From Olleya sp. Bg11-27 (GTDB taxonomy: Bacteria > Bacteroidota > Bacteroidia > Flavobacteriales > Flavobacteriaceae): DNA of 64,000 nucleotides. The DNA is taken from the NCBI RefSeq assembly GCF_002831645.1, contig NZ_CP025117.1, forward strand, positions 1,185,514 to 1,249,513, written 5' to 3'. The stretch's first letter is position 1; each line of letters starts with the position of its first letter. Shown piece by piece: positions 51,914 through 60,319 of this stretch. The notes beneath the pieces are model-generated. The model did not search any database and was not told the DNA's origin. It saw nothing but the letters and a program-made list of their open reading frames with translations. Made by a program: the position numbers and the translations under genes.

Positions 51914-53125
51914 ATGATTTTAGAAATGAAAGTGCCTTCTCCAGGCGAATCTATAACAGAAGTTGAAATAGCAGAATGGTTAGTTCAAGATGGTGATTAT
52001 GTAGAAAAAGACCAACCAATAGCTGAGGTTGATAGTGATAAAGCAACTTTAGAATTACCAGCAGAGGCTAGTGGTACTATTACGCTTAAAGCAGAAGAAG
52101 GTGATGCAGTAGCAGTTGGACAAGTGGTATGTTTAATAGATACTAGTGCAAAAGCTCCAGAAGGAGATGCACCAGCAAAAGCAGATAAAAAAGTAGAAGC
52201 AGCACCAAAAAAAGAAACAAAAGTAGAAACCCCAAAAGCAGATACTTATGCTTCTGGAACAGCAAGTCCTGCGGCTAAAAAGATTTTAGCAGAAAAAGGG
52301 ATGGATACAAGTACTATATCTGGGACAGGAAAAGATGGACGTGTCACTAAAAATGATGCCGTAAATGCTGTGCCATCTATGGGAACACCAACAGGTGGAG
52401 ACCGTAGTGCTTCAAATTCTAAAATGTCAATGTTACGTCGTAAAGTAGCAGAGCGTTTAGTAGAAGCTAAAAACACGACAGCAATGTTAACTACTTTTAA
52501 CGAGGTAAACATGTCTCCTGTTTTTGCATTACGTAAAGAATATAAGGAAACTTTTAAGTCTAAACATGGTGTTGGTTTAGGGTTTATGTCATTTTTCTCA
52601 TTAGCAGTTGTGCGTGCATTACAAATGTATCCTGCTGTTAATTCTATGATAGATGGTAAGGAAATGAAAACATTTAACTTCGTAGATATTAGTATAGCAG
52701 TTTCTGGACCAAAAGGATTAATGGTACCAGTGATTAGAAATGCTGAAAACTTAACCTTTAGAGGTGTCGAGTCAGAAGTTAAAAGATTAGCACTTAGAGC
52801 TAGAGATGGTCAAATCACTGTAGATGAAATGACAGGAGGTACTTTTACAATTACAAACGGAGGTGTTTTTGGTAGTATGTTATCTACTCCAATTATAAAT
52901 CCACCTCAAAGTGGAATTTTAGGAATGCATAATATTATAGAGCGCCCAATAGCTGTAGATGGAAAAGTAGAAATTCATCCTATGATGTATGTTGCATTAT
53001 CTTATGACCATAGAATAATTGATGGTAAAGAAAGTGTAGGCTTTTTAGTTGCTATTAAAGAGGCATTAGAGAATCCAATTGAATTACTTATGGGTAATGA
53101 TATTAAGAAAGCTTTAGAGCTTTAA
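51914..53125 (+). CDS. sucB: Dihydrolipoyllysine-residue succinyltransferase (2-oxoglutarate dehydrogenase E2)
   Basis: 403 aa core of the 2-oxoglutarate dehydrogenase complex. Residues 1-75 form the lipoyl domain, with the modified lysine K43 in [11 protein letters not shown]. An Ala/Pro/Lys-rich linker (about 80-115) leads to the E1/E3-binding domain (about 118-155, [22 protein letters not shown]-like) and the catalytic domain, whose active site HRxxDG appears in [13 protein letters not shown]. Only one lipoyl domain is present, as is usual for SucB. It is the last gene of the operon, with a strong terminator at 53146. Confidence 0.97.
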
Positions 53126-53145
53126 TAATCGTTTATATAAAATTA

Positions 53146-53177
53146 AAAGGGAGCAACATAGATGCTCCCTTTTTTTG
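53146..53177 (+). terminator. Intrinsic terminator after sucB
   Basis: Stem AAGGGAGCA/TGCTCCCTT with a 6-base loop and seven T, 21 bp after the sucB stop codon. Confidence 0.92.
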
Positions 53178-53180
53178 TGT

Positions 53181-53291
53181 TTATTTGTCAAAAAATATGA
53201 CGACATTAAATGCGATAATAAGTAATGTTAGTATTACAAGACATGCAATGATGATCCTGTTTTGTTCCCTTGTTCTCTTTTCTAAATCCAT
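53181..53291 (-). CDS. 36-aa single-pass membrane protein
   Basis: A short ORF on the minus strand encodes M-D-L-E-K-R-T-R-E-Q-N-R-I-I-I-A, then a 20-residue hydrophobic segment (ACLVILTLLIIAFNVVIFF) and D-K at the end. The charged, Arg-rich N-terminus followed by one transmembrane helix is a plausible small membrane protein with its N-terminus inside, and the composition is not that of a random frame. It lies downstream of a terminator-like hairpin (53304) and converges on the sucB terminator. No family is recognised. Translation is not proven. Confidence 0.6.
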   Translation of the reverse strand: MDLEKRTREQNRIIIACLVILTLLIIAFNVVIFFDK

Positions 53292-53303
53292 ACTGTAGTT
53301 TTA

Positions 53304-53337
53304 AATAAAAACTCTGCACCACTACAGTGCAGAGTCT
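53304..53337 (-). terminator. Intrinsic terminator between the tandem array and the 36-aa gene
   Basis: Perfect stem ACTCTGCAC/GTGCAGAGT with a 7-base loop. On the minus strand it is followed by TTTTATTT. It would stop minus-strand transcripts leaving the array. Confidence 0.75.
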
Positions 53338-53345
53338 TCTTAAAT

Positions 53346-54560
53346 AATTCTCCCTAAGAACTAATTTAATAGCACTGTAAAGGTATAAGATATATACGAC
53401 CTGTGAAATACGTAGAACTACGTATTTTTATTTGGATATTGACCAAAAAAAAAGCTCCAAAACAGTTTAACGTTTTAGAGCTTTATCAATTCTCCCAAAA
53501 TTGATTAATAGCACTGTAAAGGTATAAGATATATACGACCTGTGAAATACGTAGAACTACGTATTTTTATTTGGGTGTGCTCAAAAAAAAAGCTCCAAAA
53601 CAGTTTAACGTTTTAGAGCTTTATCAATTCTCCCAAAATTGATTAATAGCAAGGTAAAGGTATAGGATATATATGACGTGTGAAATACGTAGAACTACGT
53701 ATTTTTATTTGGGTGTGCTCAAAAAAAAAGCTCCAAAACAGTTTAACGTTTTAGAGCTTTATCAATTCTCCCAAAATTGATTAATAGCAAGGTAAAGGTA
53801 TAGGATATATATGACGTGTGAAATACGTAGAACTACGTATTTTTATTTGGGTGTGCTCAAAAAAAAAGCTCCAAAACAGTTTAACGTTTTAGAGCTTTAT
53901 CAATTCTCCCAAAATTGATTAATAGCAAGGTAAAGGTATAGGATATATATGACGTGTGAAATACGTAGAACTACGTATTTTTATTTGGGTGTGCTCAAAA
54001 AAAAAGCTCCAAAACAGTTTAACGTTTTAGAGCTTTATCAATTCTCCCAAAATTGATTAATAGCAAGGTAAAGGTATAGGATATATATGACGTGTGAAAT
54101 ACGTAGAACTACGTATTTTTATTTGGGTGTGCTCAAAAAAAAAGCTCCAAAACAGTTTAACGTTTTAGAGCTTCATTAATTCTCCCTAAGAACTAATTAA
54201 TAGCATGGTAAAGATATAAGATATATATGACGTGTGAAATACGTAGAACTACGTATTTTTATTTGGGTGTGCTCAAAAAAAAAGCTCTAAAACAGTTTAA
54301 CGTTTTAGAGCTTCATTAATTCTCCCTAAGAACTAATTAATAGCATGGTAAAGATATAAGATATATATGACGTGTGAAATACGTAGAACTACGTATTTTT
54401 ATTTGGATGACCTCAAAAAAAAAGCTCCAAAACAGTTTAACGTTTTAGAGCTTCATTAATTCTCCCTAAGAACTAATTAATAGCACCGTAAAGGTATAAG
54501 ATATATATGACCTGTGAAATACGTAGAACTACGTATTTTTTTTATAGGTATGGTGTGTGC
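53346..54560. repeat. Tandem array of 138-140 bp non-coding units
   Basis: Nine copies of a half-unit that begins TAATAGCA (53367, 53506, 53644, 53782, 53920, 54058, 54198, 54338, 54478) alternate with eight copies of a hairpin half-unit that begins AGCTC (53453, 53591, 53729, 53867, 54005, 54143, 54283, 54423). Each unit has three inverted repeats: AAATACGTAG-AA-CTACGTATTT; AAGCTCcAAAAC/GTTTTAGAGCTT; and ATCAATT/AATTGAT or ATTAATT/AATTAAT. On the minus strand the AGCTC hairpin is followed by eight or nine T, a perfect intrinsic terminator. There is no ORF. Units 3-6 are almost identical; units 1-2 and 7-9 are diverged variants. Each unit could be a small RNA gene with operator, promoter and terminator. 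Confidence 0.9.
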
Positions 54561-54582
54561 AAAAAAAAGCGAGCTTATATTG

Positions 54583-55230
54583 CTATAACGATATATTTGC
54601 TATAATGTCTTTATTCATATTTGCCCAAAGCATCAATTCGTTATGTGATTTTTTTAAGCCTAATTTTTTTACAATATTACTTCTGTGCTTTTCTACTGTT
54701 CTTGGAGAGCTCATTAGTTGTTTTGCTATCTCGGTTGAGGTTAATTTCTCAGATAAGAACTTAACGACCTTGACTTCTGTTGGAGTTAGCATTTCTAAAA
54801 GATTAGAGCTAGAGTAAGAGACTTTAGCATTAAGGTAAGACGCTATTTCTTCACTAAAATAAGCTTCTCCTTTTAAGACATGTGCTATACAAGTTTCAAT
54901 TTCTTCAACTGCAAATTCTTTTAAAATGTATCCAAAGACATTATATGCTTTTGCTTTGTCAAACAAGTGCTCTTCATTATCAAATGTAATTAGGATGATT
55001 TTAGTCTCTAATTCATTTTTAAAACAAGCACCAGCAACTTCTAAGCCTGTCATTTTTGGCATTCTAATATCTAATAATGCTAAGTCTGGTTTAAGCTTAA
55101 CAATTAAATTATAAGCGGTTTGACCATCTTCCGCGCTACCTATTATATTAAAACCTTTAGAGGTAATAAAGTCAGAAAGTCCTCTTAACATTAAAGGGTG
55201 GTCATCTGCTATTACAATTGAAGTACTCAT
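54583..55230 (-). CDS. LuxR/NarL-type response regulator
   Basis: 215 aa. The receiver domain (1-120) has the acidic pocket D9-D10, phospho-acceptor D54 (LALLDIRMPKMTG) and a Lys near 105. The C-terminal HTH (about 150-205) reads MLTPTEVKVVKFLSEKLTSTEIAKQL and RTVEKHRSNIVKKLGL, typical of NarL/FixJ regulators that bind palindromes as dimers. No histidine kinase is encoded in the window, so it is an orphan here. It lies 58 bp after a retropepsin-like gene on the same strand, and the TACGTA array starts just past its stop codon. Control of the array's palindromes is a natural hypothesis. Confidence 0.93.
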   Translation of the reverse strand: MSTSIVIADDHPLMLRGLSDFITSKGFNIIGSAEDGQTAYNLIVKLKPDLALLDIRMPKMTGLEVAGACFKNELETKIILITFDNEEHLFDKAKAYNVFGYILKEFAVEEIETCIAHVLKGEAYFSEEIASYLNAKVSYSSSNLLEMLTPTEVKVVKFLSEKLTSTEIAKQLMSSPRTVEKHRSNIVKKLGLKKSHNELMLWANMNKDIIANISL

Positions 55231-55288: not shown

Positions 55289-55741
55289 TTAGACTAATTT
55301 TTTTAAATACAAATATTTTTTATCGTAATCAATAATGCCTTTAACTTTTTTTAAAATATCAGCACCAATAATACCATCAACTGGTTGCGCGTCATGATTG
55401 ATTAATGCTGTGTTGACATGGCTCAAGTCGAATAAAACTAAAGCCGCTTTCGCTATTTTTAATCGCCCAATTTTTAATGTATTGTTTTTGGAAACTTGAG
55501 TTTTCATGTTAGTTGCTCCAGCACCTGCAGCCAATACCTTTGAATCTTTTACTTTTTTTAAAGAAAATTTACTTGTAGCTTCAAAACCGACACAACTATT
55601 GGACGCACCTGTATCTAAGATAAATAAGCCTTTAACTCCGTTTATTGAGGCTTTAATCTCAAAATGATTGGTTTTAGTTAATTTTAATTTGACTCTAATG
55701 TAGTCCTTGGCAAATAAAAAGTCTTTAAGCGTGTTTTCCAT
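55289..55741 (-). CDS. Retropepsin-like aspartic protease
   Basis: 150 aa, the size of a one-domain retropepsin monomer. The catalytic motif is D43-T-G-A-S in GLFILDTGASNSC, and the flap-like and later AALVLFDLSH and DGIIGADIL segments fit the fold; the I-I-G-A-D motif near residue 128 is the usual second signature. It would work as a homodimer. No signal peptide is present, so it should be cytoplasmic. The start overlaps the end of the CHAT protease gene by 17 bp, so the two are coupled. Bacterial members often process a single partner; here the CHAT protein or the response regulator are candidates. Confidence 0.88.
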   Translation of the reverse strand: MENTLKDFLFAKDYIRVKLKLTKTNHFEIKASINGVKGLFILDTGASNSCVGFEATSKFSLKKVKDSKVLAAGAGATNMKTQVSKNNTLKIGRLKIAKAALVLFDLSHVNTALINHDAQPVDGIIGADILKKVKGIIDYDKKYLYLKKLV

Positions 55742-58313
55742 TGTGACGTCTTCGTATTATAAACCATAAAAGTAAAGCAATAGCTAATCCAATAATAGTA
55801 AAAACAATATATTTTGAATAATTGGAAACTGTTATAGGGGTTAAATCGCCATAATAGGTGAAAGCACTCCAATAATACGGTGATTTTTTAATGTTTGAGA
55901 TTTCTGGATTATTTAAGTAGTCTATTTTTGATAAATGGTTAGCAATAAAAACCGAATGTGTTTTGCTATAATTTTTGTAAAAGGAAGCCATCAATTTTGA
56001 GGTTGATAAGTCATTGATTTTCCAAAGTGAAAATAATAAGTTTTCTACACCAGCATATTGAAAACCTCTAGCCATATTCATGCTTCCTTCTCCTTTTTGA
56101 AGTTTTCCAATGCCCGTTTCGCAAGCACTTAACACGACTAGTTTGTTGCTTAGATTGACGCTATATAATTCATTTAAAAATAATTTTTCATCTATAAAAT
56201 CGATGTTTGAAGGAACTCTAAATGTTCCGCTACTAGCATGTGTGGATAAATGTAATATACCATAGTTTTTAGCTTGAAGGAGTGCGTCTTTTTTAGTGGC
56301 ACTATCATACATTAAAAATTTTACATCAATATGTTTTGCAATACTTTCTGCCTCGTTTATGGAGTACGTTAACTTTGAATTACTGTTGTCAAATACCGGG
56401 AAAACACCTAAAACAGATGCGTCGTATTCAAAAGGGTGTGTGTTTAAATATAAAAATGCACTGGTATTATAAGCTAAAATCTGCTTTTTAGCTACAAAGG
56501 GCATTTTAGAATAACTTGTTGTTGATGTATTTAAGGATAAAAGACTTTCAAAAGGAATAAAATTTAAAAAACCATCTGGTATAATTACAACGTTTTTATA
56601 CGCAGAAGTATTTTTAAAATGTAATAATTGATACAGTTGAAAAGCATCGGTTGTAAATGCTGATATGTTATTATTTATTGCAGAAGAATTATCGAAGTAA
56701 TTAATATAATCATTTATTGCATTATCTAAATCAGTTGTCTTTTTAATCTTAATAAAATCAATGGATTCCGCGGAAATTATAAATTGAAAAATAGCTGTAT
56801 TTCCATAAAAGTATTCCGCTAGAATAGCCTTGTTTTTATCTAGTTTGTATTGAAGTTTTTTGATTGAAATATTGGAAGTATTAGACTTAGGATATACTTT
56901 ATCTATTTTAATTTTTAATTGCTTTAAAGCAGAACTTGCAGTTGTAAGATCTTGGCTTAGTGTATTAATTTGATTAGCATCTTTCTGGTATTGTGCTTTT
57001 ATCAAACTATTGGTTAAGCGTTCTTGTTTGCGTAATAGTGATTGTTCGTTAATTAATAAACTATCATTGGGGTGTAATTGTAATAATGTTTTTTTACTAA
57101 TAGTTTCTTTTAAAATAGTGCTTTTATTTTTTTCAGCGTAGATAAAAGCCTGTATTGCAATAGTAGAGTCTTTTGTCGATTGATAGACGTCAAATAGTAA
57201 GTTTATACAAGATTCGCTTCGTCTTCTATTAGCTGTTAAGTGCAATAGTTTAGAGTCTTGAGAGGTTAGATTTTCAGTTAATAAATCAGAGACGTAAAAG
57301 CTCAGGTTGTAATAGGCTAAAGCGGTATTGTAGTTTGGTTGCATTTCTGCTAATAAATCAAATATATCTATAAATGTATTTTCGGGATATAAGTCTTCTT
57401 TTATTGGGAGTTGTTGCTGTTTAGTGTTTGGAAGTAATAATTTAATAGCACTCTTTAACGCTTTTAGGCTTGTTTCAAAATCATTTAATTTATAATTAAG
57501 TTGTGCATTTTTAACATGTAATTTAGCTAGATTTCTAGCGTTAATAGCACTGTTCTTCGAAGCTTTATCAATTAGTTTTGTGGAATATTTTAGGGCTTCT
57601 TCAAAATTTTTATTGTTTACAGCAATATTATATTTGGTCTCTAATGAAGTCACATCATAAGAGTCTATTTGACTTTTTGTAGGGATATCTTTATTGCTGG
57701 TTGTTTGTTTTAATGCTATTTGACTATTGGTATTTATTTGAATTAGTTTTTGTTTCTGCACATTTGTAATACCTTTAATTTCTAAGCCTTTTTTTACAAT
57801 TGATTTTGAAGATTCAAATTTTCCGACCGTGTAATATAGTTGTGCTAAATTAATAGCTCCACTAATTCTGTGTTTGGCATTTTGTTGTTTTTCGGCTAGA
57901 AAAGTATATTGTTTAATCGTATTTTCTGCGTTAGTGTAATCACCAATTTTATTATATAAAACACCTAAAGGCTTTAGGCAGTATTCAGTAATGTCATATT
58001 CAAAAACGGTACTGAGTTTTTGAGAATTATAAAGGTTTAAAGCGTCTTCATAAACACTAATAGCACTTGTTTGTTGATTTTTGCTATCTAGATAATTTGC
58101 TTTACTTACTAAGAAAAATAGATACGCAAAATAGTCATCTTTTGTTTTACTATTAGATTTGAAATATGTTTCGTTTTTTAAGAAAGCGTTATACGTTTCA
58201 GATGTCCTTTTTGCATTAAATGTTTCGGTTGCTATATAAATAGTTTCTTCTAGCTCTTGCGAAAGCAAACTCCCAAAGACCAAAAAGAATAATATGATAA
58301 GGTTATATTTCAT
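55725..58313 (-). CDS. TPR-CHAT domain protease, predicted periplasmic and membrane-anchored
   Basis: 862 aa. The signal peptide ends FGSLLSQ. TPR-like helical repeats cover about 25-340 and a coiled region about 410-490. The CHAT caspase-like domain (about 550-815) has catalytic H692 (ILHLSTHASSG) and C731 (VLSACETGIG), followed by the conserved GEGSMNMARGFQYAG. One TM helix (about 835-853) and a basic tail (RRRHNGKHA) follow. The signal peptide and tail place the TPR and protease domains in the periplasm. CHAT domains are proteases in TPR-linked signalling and in type III-E CRISPR systems. It is preceded by a PKD/barrel gene and overlaps a retropepsin gene. The substrate is unknown. Confidence 0.9.
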   Translation of the reverse strand: MKYNLIILFFLVFGSLLSQELEETIYIATETFNAKRTSETYNAFLKNETYFKSNSKTKDDYFAYLFFLVSKANYLDSKNQQTSAISVYEDALNLYNSQKLSTVFEYDITEYCLKPLGVLYNKIGDYTNAENTIKQYTFLAEKQQNAKHRISGAINLAQLYYTVGKFESSKSIVKKGLEIKGITNVQKQKLIQINTNSQIALKQTTSNKDIPTKSQIDSYDVTSLETKYNIAVNNKNFEEALKYSTKLIDKASKNSAINARNLAKLHVKNAQLNYKLNDFETSLKALKSAIKLLLPNTKQQQLPIKEDLYPENTFIDIFDLLAEMQPNYNTALAYYNLSFYVSDLLTENLTSQDSKLLHLTANRRRSESCINLLFDVYQSTKDSTIAIQAFIYAEKNKSTILKETISKKTLLQLHPNDSLLINEQSLLRKQERLTNSLIKAQYQKDANQINTLSQDLTTASSALKQLKIKIDKVYPKSNTSNISIKKLQYKLDKNKAILAEYFYGNTAIFQFIISAESIDFIKIKKTTDLDNAINDYINYFDNSSAINNNISAFTTDAFQLYQLLHFKNTSAYKNVVIIPDGFLNFIPFESLLSLNTSTTSYSKMPFVAKKQILAYNTSAFLYLNTHPFEYDASVLGVFPVFDNSNSKLTYSINEAESIAKHIDVKFLMYDSATKKDALLQAKNYGILHLSTHASSGTFRVPSNIDFIDEKLFLNELYSVNLSNKLVVLSACETGIGKLQKGEGSMNMARGFQYAGVENLLFSLWKINDLSTSKLMASFYKNYSKTHSVFIANHLSKIDYLNNPEISNIKKSPYYWSAFTYYGDLTPITVSNYSKYIVFTIIGLAIALLLWFIIRRRHNGKHA

Positions 58314-58360
58314 TTAAAATAATCGAGGTATACTTTACTCGGGATAGGCTTGCTTTTTAG

Positions 58361-60319
58361 TTAAAATTTCCAAATTGCGTACAATTGCATGTAGTTATAA
58401 TTCTCTTTAAAATTAAAAACGTAACGCGCGCCAATGCTAGGACCAATTCTTGCAAAACCAGCTGTGGCTTCCACTAAAAATCCCGTTCTGAAGTTTGTAA
58501 AACTAGACGTTTCCGTACTGTTCGTTGTGGTCGTCTCTAAATTAGGAACTTCAAATGTACCAGCTTCATCTTCAAAATAGGCGGTTGTTGCTGTTGTTTC
58601 ACTTTTTTCGCTAAGAGAAAACATACCTTGTAGTCCAGCACCTAAACCAATATAATTATTGATGTTATATCTCGCTAAAACAGGAAGTTCCCAATCTACG
58701 TTGTTGTAGTTTTTTGAAGTGGTTTTACGTTCGTAATACGGAAAACCTACTGGTGTATTTTCAATTAAAGTATTGGTAAAATTGGATTGTCCGTCATAAC
58801 TATGAAAACTGTTTAAAAGCTCCACTTGCCAATACCATTTGTAAGATTTGTAAGGGGATAGTGTAGCACCAACAAAATAACTTTTAGAATTATCTAAATC
58901 TGAAAACGAATTATAACCTGCTTTTGCACCAATCGAAATTCCTGGTAAAAACCTTGTGGTAGAGTAGTTTGTTATAATCGGATCATTTTTGTCAAAAATG
59001 ATAGCAGTACGCGATTTTGTCTTTTGTTTATGAAAGTCCTTTCCGAATTTAATGTTGTATTGTACAAATCCTTTAGTGGAGTCGTAAACTTTTACGTTTT
59101 TTTGCTCGCTTCCGGGAAGGTAAATATTTTTGAATGTAAAAATGGCTTGTTTTTCTGTATAAGTGGTATCTAAACAACTGTATGTAACCTGATATTTAGG
59201 ACAGATTTTGACTTTTGGATACATGTCTAAAACGGTAATGGAAGTTTTGTCAAACATATCGGGAATGTCCGTTTCTAACCTAATCGTATTTGCTGGACCT
59301 TCTCCATTATTTTGAAATCTAATTTTAAATTTAGGTGTTTTAAATCGAACTAATCTATAGTTTAAAAATGTTGCATTTGAAGACATTTTGTTTGGATCAT
59401 GTGAGGTGACAATTTCCATCTCCATGTCTTTTACATTATGATTGTCATAATTTTCATCTGGAATATATATTCCTCTAACCGAAATGATAGCACTAGTATC
59501 TTTTAGCATTTCGGGGGTTGTTTTTAAAGTATAAAACACATTACGCTCTTCATTAGGTTGCATGTTGTTAAAGCTTAGTGTACTAGCGTTTTTGTAATTG
59601 GCTTTAGCGTCTTCGAGCGTTAGCGGTAAGTTTTGTCTTTCGGTTGAATCCTGTGGACTAAGATAAGCACGCAAGTTTTGAGTTTCCGCGGAAGCGTAAA
59701 ATGCATTATTTTTAGGTTTGGAGATGTAAACTAAATTGTCATTTTCTATTTTAGTCTCACCATGATGTGTTCTGGTGTCTGTTAGTTGAAAGTTGTTATC
59801 GTTATAAATAGTTTCGTTGTAAAATAAATACAACTGTCCATTGGTAGTATAGTCTTTTGTATTTTTATATTTAAGAATTATCACTATTTCTTCTTCAGGC
59901 ATCGGTTCGCGGTTACGTTGTAAATCAATAGCTTCTTCCATAGACGCTTGTTCCTGAAAAGTGTCATCTGCAGAATCTATTCTTATTTTTTTTGGCCTTG
60001 TTGTTGGAGGTTTCCCTGTGTCGTAGTTGTTGGTAGCCCAAAGTCTCACTTCGTAATCGCCAGTATTTTTATAAACCTTTATTGGATTGTTTTCTTTACT
60101 GTAAGTCCCGTCTCCAAATTCCCAATAATTGGTATAAAATGCTTTTGGTGCTCCTGCAATCTGATTTAATATAGGTGCTTTTGGAGAGAATAATGTTTGA
60201 TTACCACTAGTTTTATACTCTATTGTAGCGGAGCGTCTTGTTGTGTCTATTACAGTATCTTGTCCAAAACTGAGTGTTGTAATACTTAAGGTAAAAATTA
60301 TAGCGATTATAGTTTTCAT
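58361..60319 (-). CDS. PKD-domain outer-membrane beta-barrel protein
   Basis: 652 aa with a signal peptide ending TTLSFGQ. A PKD domain (about 30-115) shows WEFGDGTYSKENNP and YEVRLWATN. The middle part (about 150-440) has immunoglobulin-like beta-sandwich modules of the DUF11/conserved-repeat type, including a MSSNATFLNYRLVRFKTPKFK strand set. The C-terminal 190 residues form an outer-membrane barrel (FLPGISIGAKAGYN, GPSIGARYVFNF) ending in LYAIWKF with a terminal Phe. It begins a probable operon with the CHAT protease 47 bp downstream. It may be the outer-membrane sensor or substrate of that protease. Confidence 0.85.
   Translation of the reverse strand: MKTIIAIIFTLSITTLSFGQDTVIDTTRRSATIEYKTSGNQTLFSPKAPILNQIAGAPKAFYTNYWEFGDGTYSKENNPIKVYKNTGDYEVRLWATNNYDTGKPPTTRPKKIRIDSADDTFQEQASMEEAIDLQRNREPMPEEEIVIILKYKNTKDYTTNGQLYLFYNETIYNDNNFQLTDTRTHHGETKIENDNLVYISKPKNNAFYASAETQNLRAYLSPQDSTERQNLPLTLEDAKANYKNASTLSFNNMQPNEERNVFYTLKTTPEMLKDTSAIISVRGIYIPDENYDNHNVKDMEMEIVTSHDPNKMSSNATFLNYRLVRFKTPKFKIRFQNNGEGPANTIRLETDIPDMFDKTSITVLDMYPKVKICPKYQVTYSCLDTTYTEKQAIFTFKNIYLPGSEQKNVKVYDSTKGFVQYNIKFGKDFHKQKTKSRTAIIFDKNDPIITNYSTTRFLPGISIGAKAGYNSFSDLDNSKSYFVGATLSPYKSYKWYWQVELLNSFHSYDGQSNFTNTLIENTPVGFPYYERKTTSKNYNNVDWELPVLARYNINNYIGLGAGLQGMFSLSEKSETTATTAYFEDEAGTFEVPNLETTTTNSTETSSFTNFRTGFLVEATAGFARIGPSIGARYVFNFKENYNYMQLYAIWKF

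Follow-up and report, generated by a model that had tools for sequence, protein, structure and literature searches.

GacA is a response regulator of the LuxR/NarL type, and CsgD is likewise a LuxR-type regulator. In the Gac-Rsm system of Pseudomonas, the small RNA (sRNA) genes RsmX/Y/Z lie behind a palindrome that serves the response regulator as an upstream activating sequence (PMC2375449, PMC7911923); the rsm genes vary in copy number, with rsmX arranged in tandem in some strains (PMC7911923), and the Rsm RNAs, which present several GGA motifs in unpaired form, sequester RsmA/CsrA (PMC2375449). The E. coli CsgD-curli circuit includes sRNAs that target the csgD mRNA, with the involvement of Hfq (PMC5745457). 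Two sRNAs are described from Bacteroides and Flavobacterium: FopS of Bacteroides thetaiotaomicron, which is present in 14 copies per genome at separate loci with canonical promoters, is bound by RbpB and has susC-like mRNA targets (PMC11697453), and Rfp18 of Flavobacterium psychrophilum, the deletion of which affects protease mRNAs and which pairs through its third stem-loop (PMC9723704).

The locus described here lies in the window (the whole stretch of Olleya sp. Bg11-27 DNA that was analysed, 64,000 nucleotides) and is an array of units, all on the minus strand, located between the gene for a LuxR/NarL-type response regulator (RR) and, on the opposite flank and on the plus strand, sucB (named from its translation). 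The RR protein consists of a receiver domain and a LuxR-type HTH domain, and its best named match, at 87%, comes from an uncultured Olleya. The repeats, their fixed geometry, conservation, covariation with a strand bias, synteny, a second module and a set of curli sites can all be read from the DNA; on these grounds, we consider it probable that the locus encodes many copies of an sRNA that belongs to a new family, is activated by the RR and acts in trans on surface and curli functions, in a genome without detectable CsrA or Hfq. The features of the locus, with E-values from the RNA covariance model described below, are:

54583..55230, minus strand: LuxR/NarL-type RR gene, likely an activator; Pfam Response_reg 2.2e-23, GerE 7.7e-11; the same units follow the orthologue in 95 of 99 distinct loci
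54409..54541, minus strand: unit 1 (RR-proximal); palindrome 54520-54535, −7 box 54489-54496, core from 54484; RNA model match at genome positions 1239926-1240001, E 1.1e-7
54269..54401, minus strand: unit 2; palindrome 54380-54395, box 54349-54356, core from 54344; RNA model E 4.8e-8
54129..54261, minus strand: unit 3; palindrome 54240-54255, box 54209-54216, core from 54204; RNA model E 1.0e-7
53990..54121, minus strand: unit 4; palindrome 54100-54115, box 54069-54076, core from 54064; RNA model E 1.5e-6
53852..53983, minus strand: unit 5; palindrome 53962-53977, box 53931-53938, core from 53926; RNA model E 1.5e-6
53714..53845, minus strand: unit 6; palindrome 53824-53839, box 53793-53800, core from 53788; RNA model E 1.5e-6
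53576..53707, minus strand: unit 7; palindrome 53686-53701, box 53655-53662, core from 53650; RNA model E 1.5e-6
53438..53569, minus strand: unit 8; palindrome 53548-53563, box 53517-53524, core from 53512; RNA model E 6.9e-7
53300..53430, minus strand: unit 9; palindrome 53409-53424, box 53378-53385, core from 53373 (GCTATTAAA), different hairpin, runs into the small ORF; RNA model match at genome positions 1238813-1238890, E 2.0e-8
53181..53291, minus strand: ORF for a hydrophobic 36-aa product, MDLEKRTREQNRIIIACLVILTLLIIAFNVVIFFDK (from translation)

Tandem Repeats Finder delineates positions 53366-54540 as a tandem repeat with a period of 138, 8.5 copies and 97% matches. Exact copies of the palindrome TACGTAGAACTACGTA start at nine positions (53409, 53548, 53686, 53824, 53962, 54100, 54240, 54380 and 54520), with steps of 138-140 bp between them; when up to 3 mismatches are allowed, the whole window yields the same nine sites against an expectation of 1.7, and none of 100 shuffles reaches nine. 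The minus strand of the array contains eight near-identical terminator-like hairpins followed by a T-run, and the region 53100-54700 includes 11 terminator-like sites compared to 0.6 in shuffles; of the three sites beyond the main eight, one is the plus-strand reading of a unit. The Tandem Repeats Finder result and the shuffle counts of palindromes and terminator-like sites rule out chance repeats, and both the tandem array of 138-140 bp units with nine TACGTA palindromes and the minus-strand terminators with T-runs, reported in an earlier note on this DNA, are confirmed. The same note counted eight hairpins, which is correct for the near-identical ones on the minus strand; given that the leftmost, ninth unit also has a hairpin, albeit of a different sequence (ACTCTGCAC...GTGCAGAGT), the array consists of nine units.

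In each unit, a perfect palindrome is followed at a fixed distance by a −7 box of the Bacteroidota type; the 5′ element, GCTATTAA(T/A), and a hairpin resembling a terminator complete the unit. The 5′ sequence reads GCUAUUAAUCAAUUUUGGGAGAAUUGAU in five of the nine units, GCUAUUAAUUAGUUCUUAGGGAGAAUUA being the commonest form family-wide. With the core as its start and the last T of the T-run as its end, the predicted RNA is about 70 nt long, that is, small as previously proposed but somewhat shorter than the 75–100 nt given then. Eight of the units are near-identical copies, each equipped with its own operator, −7 box, core, terminator and T-run, as would be expected of multicopy sibling sRNAs. 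The RNA covariance model detects no tenth unit in the genome below an E-value of 0.1; three of the next-best matches (E 0.13 and worse) were inspected and read like plain terminators.

The RR orthologue was sought in 60 relatives, and TACGTA units were found behind the RR gene in all nine other members of the genus, in agreement with the expectation of similar arrays in related genomes, and also in several other genera. The exact palindrome is present in 11 of the 60 relatives, and elsewhere it varies as TACGYR-N4-YRCGTA. Named genomes were scanned as well, with the best 80 of 549 RR loci taken, a choice biased to near relatives. Of the 103 loci in all, 99 have units behind the RR gene (259 units, 1-9 per locus); after the removal of four duplicates (L034/L061, L040/L062, L042/L112 and L043/L121), they are present in 95 of the 99 distinct RR loci (250 units), nearly all from Flavobacteriaceae. 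The distance from the operator start to GCTATTAAT is exactly 51 in 236 of the 259 units (227 of 250 without duplicates), three palindrome-anchor pairs with a spacing of 61-71 having been dropped before the counts. The −7 consensus of Bacteroidota is TAnnTTTG, and TAnnTTT occupies a single fixed position in 225 of the 259 units (220 of 250 without duplicates). Of the four loci without units, L045 and L049 retain the palindrome and the small ORF and are missing the RNA, and loci L051 and L052 encode distant RRs, with neither units nor sucB alongside.

Upstream of the RR gene and on the same strand (55289-60319), genes for a PKD/DUF7849 protein, a CHAT-TPR protein and a retropepsin-like protease are arranged in a row; the retropepsin gene accompanies the RR in most loci and the CHAT gene in part of them. 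A search of the open-access literature found no paper on the CHAT-retropepsin-RR combination. A GCTATTAAT leader on the PKD gene that heads this row was identified in one of 30 loci (L071), is absent from the window and, therefore, is not conserved.

Selection at the RNA level is visible in the 3′ stem. Alignment A2 includes 150 units, 11 of the 161 non-redundant units having been dropped by eye because they lacked the hairpin or ran into ORFs, which favours the covariation count; alignment A1 was built without L042. In the 150-unit alignment, all 12 pairs of the 3′ stem changed on both sides; 95.1% of the stem cells are paired compared to 77.0% after shuffling, with none of 500 shuffles as good, and shifting the partner by 1-3 columns lowers the pairing to 25–56%. 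The stem includes 223 G-U cells versus 12 A-C cells; because a G-U pair tolerated on one strand reads as A-C on the other, this excess points to the minus strand as the RNA strand. The folding of whole units (mean z −4.1 across 161 units; −4.0 to −4.7 for three units of the window) leaves the strand undecided when taken alone because the plus strand also folds better than its shuffles (for one unit, z −3.65 versus −4.02 for the minus strand, both beyond the shuffles). Plus-strand transcription, entertained as an alternative in the earlier note, can be rejected: the array has a single plus-strand terminator-like site with a poor tail, against eight minus-strand T-runs, and the G-U bias favours the minus strand. 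Thus, the proposal of small non-coding units on the minus strand, each behind a palindromic operator, is supported by the spacing, the 3′ stem covariation, the G-U bias, the T-runs and the synteny.

The 5′ part of the RNA behaves differently. The first 38 nt have a mean fold z of −0.95, slightly better than shuffles, and the outer six pairs of the 5′ hairpin are standard in 167 of 288 cases compared to 163.2 ± 4.3 after shuffling (48 distinct 25-mers from 132 units), so that covariation is not supported here. GGGAG occurs once per array unit and is partly paired in the predicted fold, in which the loop is not an open GGGAG, as originally suggested, but an AGG or GGG triloop; the small hairpin itself is weakly supported, its outer pairs being at the level of shuffles. 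The 5′ part is kept as sequence, not as structure, the hairpin shape being without covariation support.

Matches to the RNA are also found dispersed; 20 regions, with 21 matches, were chosen by eye among the matches listed. In 14 of these 21 units, TACTCAA-N-TTGAGTA (with at most one mismatch) replaces TACGTA, with the same core and a different terminator. The operator centre is located 42.5 bp from the core in all 14 units of this second module, which comes from other genera, compared to 43 in the first; a gene for a PAS-LuxR regulator (Pfam GerE, PAS_3) lies upstream in 13 of the 14, and murF is convergent in 12. Because each of the two palindromes lies beside its own LuxR-type regulator, one RNA core seems to be wired to two regulators; if so, at least two regulators of the LuxR type share a single RNA core. 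The Olleya genome itself yielded no match to the PAS-LuxR regulator at E ≤1e-20 in a search run without a positive control. In two further loci (L161, with two units, and L170), a TACGG-N4-CCGTA-like palindrome is found at a similar distance, perhaps the site of a third regulator. In L167 and L168, which come from two related genomes, RNA units without a clear palindrome lie close to a gene that, by the look of its translation, we take to be moeA.

The product of the 36-aa ORF has a polar N-terminus and a single hydrophobic stretch, and no Pfam family matched it. By the same rule throughout, a TM-like small ORF follows the last unit in 98 of the 103 loci (a few are doubtful, for example, L050 and L123), including L045 and L049, which have no RNA. 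This association, along with the 12 of the 99 unit-bearing loci that have one unit only, would fit an alternative under which the units are duplicated leaders of a small membrane protein gene, so that the last unit works together with the ORF, its hairpin attenuates, and the other copies are by-products. We deem this alternative unlikely inasmuch as the upstream units have terminators of their own and retain the core and the compensatory changes, and the second module carries the RNA without the small ORF. A type I toxin-antitoxin arrangement was not found: the nine units and the 36-aa ORF are on one strand, and there is no match to the array RNA model opposite the ORF.

The RR palindrome is present in more than 30 additional copies across the Olleya genome. 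Among 35 such dispersed sites, many of which are copies of each other, 33 have a box (agreeing with TAnnTTTG at five or all of its six fixed letters) at the same distance as in the array; in other genomes, this is the case for 11 of 20 palindrome sites. The genes behind the dispersed palindromes are mixed accessory genes, including those for bSEFIR- and PD-Lambda-1-like defence proteins and TssD; interpretation of these sites as defence islands was rejected, with two strong and one weak PADLOC matches among 10 first genes and any Pfam match for 7 of 20. These 35 sites of the Olleya genome (L005-L022) have a cassette-like look: the palindrome, with the promoter geometry of the array, precedes rows of accessory genes that are unrelated to one another, and the intergenic stretches are repeated. 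In other members of the genus, RR palindromes precede a reverse transcriptase gene and a gene that matches RNA polymerase alpha-CTD and sigma region 4 (L202, L207). The abundance of the palindrome, with nine perfect copies in the array alone, could suggest an operator array functioning at the DNA level, in which the palindromes would titrate the regulator or bind it co-operatively, with no role for the transcripts. Such a role is decidedly improbable: selection is visible on RNA pairs, with a strand bias, as well as on the −7 box and the core, and the same core is driven by a second palindrome.

A possible connection to function comes from the genes for curli, which are sticky fibres on the cell surface. 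The Olleya genome has a curli operon with genes for CsgA/B-type proteins, CsgE, CsgF and CsgG, and in three relatives, the RR palindrome is found upstream of curlin genes. In all six curlin genes with a leader (L203, three in L205, L213 and L219; these come from the Olleya genome and the three relatives, and a seventh gene, inside the L219 operon, is outside the count), a perfect palindrome is located 185-195 bp upstream of GCTATTAAT, which itself follows a TAnnTTTR box and lies 24-27 nt before the start codon, at the predicted mRNA start. These sites were reached via the palindrome and represent one genus only; the palindrome is distal in them, and the −7 box is off the array distance. Across 699,038 strand-bases of Olleya DNA, GCTATTAAT occurs 24 times, nine of these behind a TAnnTTTR box, namely, in eight array units and the curlin gene; the ninth array unit reads GCTATTAAA. 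Because curlin genes share both the operator and the predicted mRNA start GCUAUUAAU, we place the RNA in curli control, and its arena would most likely be curli and surface functions. A search for an extended, near-complementary target, with TTCTTAGGGAGAA and one mismatch, found none: of the six genome sites, four are in the array and two are at the control level. The start shared with curli mRNAs provides a concrete hypothesis on the control of surface life, one that is testable given that this genome has a curli operon of its own.

The units might also be taken for genes of a leaderless micro-peptide rather than non-coding RNA: an in-frame start codon precedes CTATTAAT in 185 of the 259 units, and the commonest peptide, MLLISS, is encoded 63 times. 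We regard this possibility as highly improbable because in 15 of the 99 loci not one unit has this start, the peptides vary in length and sequence, and the core DNA varies little at third positions.

The covariance model search in other Flavobacteriaceae that the earlier note had suggested as a check found the RNA in 98 of 299 genomes of the family at E ≤0.01 and in 81 of 236 genera; it is shared by a large number of marine relatives. The RR orthologue (profile E ≤1e-75) is present in 122 of the 299 genomes, and the two tend strongly to co-occur: 73 of the 82 genomes with the RNA at E ≤1e-4 carry the RR orthologue (Fisher 1.5e-26), and nine have the RNA alone; 49 of the 122 genomes with the RR orthologue have no RNA at this threshold (39 have none at 0.01), and neither was found in 168 of the 299. 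In an order-wide draw, the RNA was detected in five of 296 genomes at E ≤0.001, all five from Flavobacteriaceae. Copy numbers from 1 to 9 across loci could be expected of a functionless tandem repeat that is selfish or mobile, but the constant place beside the RR across genera, the compensatory evolution and the lack of a match to a 151-base query among 50,697 phage and 72,556 plasmid records make this scarcely credible; the database result also led us to reject a phage or plasmid origin.

When the 53-55 kb part of the window was searched against Rfam 15 (E ≤5), the best hit on the units was NsiR1, at 22.3 bits versus a cut-off of 39, and at Rfam gathering scores, nine loci from other genera and the second module yielded only tRNAs. 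Searches of an open-access library brought up no description of the RNA; no paper was found there with the letters of the core and palindrome, and TACGTA together with Flavobacter retrieved only seemingly unrelated papers. These comparisons define a conserved RNA family for which no Rfam 15 model reaches its cut-off and for which the likely regulators, the operator code and the promoter geometry are readable from sequence.

Transcription, activation, RR binding, trans action and the target are the parts of the following model that we infer. The RR (54583-55230) would bind the TACGTAG-N2-CTACGTA palindromes as a dimer and activate minus-strand transcription from nine promoters with the −7 box TA(C/T)CTTTA; the operator centre would lie about 40 bp upstream of the start, and a position near −40 suits an activator. 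Eight of the promoters would give RNAs of about 70 nt that end at an intrinsic terminator, the ninth transcript would also lead into the gene for the 36-aa membrane protein, and the unit copies would supply RNA dosage. The RNA would work in trans via its conserved 5′ sequence, without CsrA or Hfq, either by base pairing or by titration of a leader-binding factor. Neither CsrA (PF02599; control positive in 3 of 14 genomes) nor Hfq (PF17209; control positive in 5 of 14 genomes) was found in the Olleya genome, which makes a CsrA sponge or an Hfq-dependent sRNA unlikely; CsrA titration is further disfavoured in that the RNA does not have several unpaired GGA motifs. A more far-reaching version, which we advance as a rather doubtful speculation, is that the array RNAs mimic the 5′ end of curli mRNA and titrate a leader-binding factor, with several LuxR-type regulators (acting through TACGTA, TACTCAA and perhaps TACGG palindromes) firing the copies, so that RNA dosage would set curli and surface behaviour, a Csr-like logic that would have arisen separately in Bacteroidota and would do without CsrA or Hfq.

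Compared to the described systems, the RR-activated sRNA array proposed here resembles FopS in being a multicopy paralogous sRNA family of Bacteroidota and differs in that the copies are in tandem, with a dedicated regulator alongside and an operator each; the two are set apart by description. Classical chaperones are not known from the organisms of either family. With Rfp18, the array RNA has in common that it is a conserved structured flavobacterial sRNA, whereas it consists of two predicted hairpins, a distinction that is made by description and not by sequence. The likeness to the CsgD-curli circuit is that curli are there under the control of a dedicated regulator and small RNAs; unlike in that circuit, the array RNA shares the curlin mRNA start, and no Hfq was found in the genome. 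In comparison with Gac-Rsm, the array RNA differs in sequence and usually has one GGA-containing site, in a stem-triloop, and no CsrA was found. The overall plan would be like that of Gac-Rsm, with an RR, a palindromic upstream site and a variable copy number, for which the predicted counterparts are the palindrome, the fixed spacing and the adjacent RR gene of the array; unlike in Gac-Rsm, the gene for the regulator adjoins the RNA genes.
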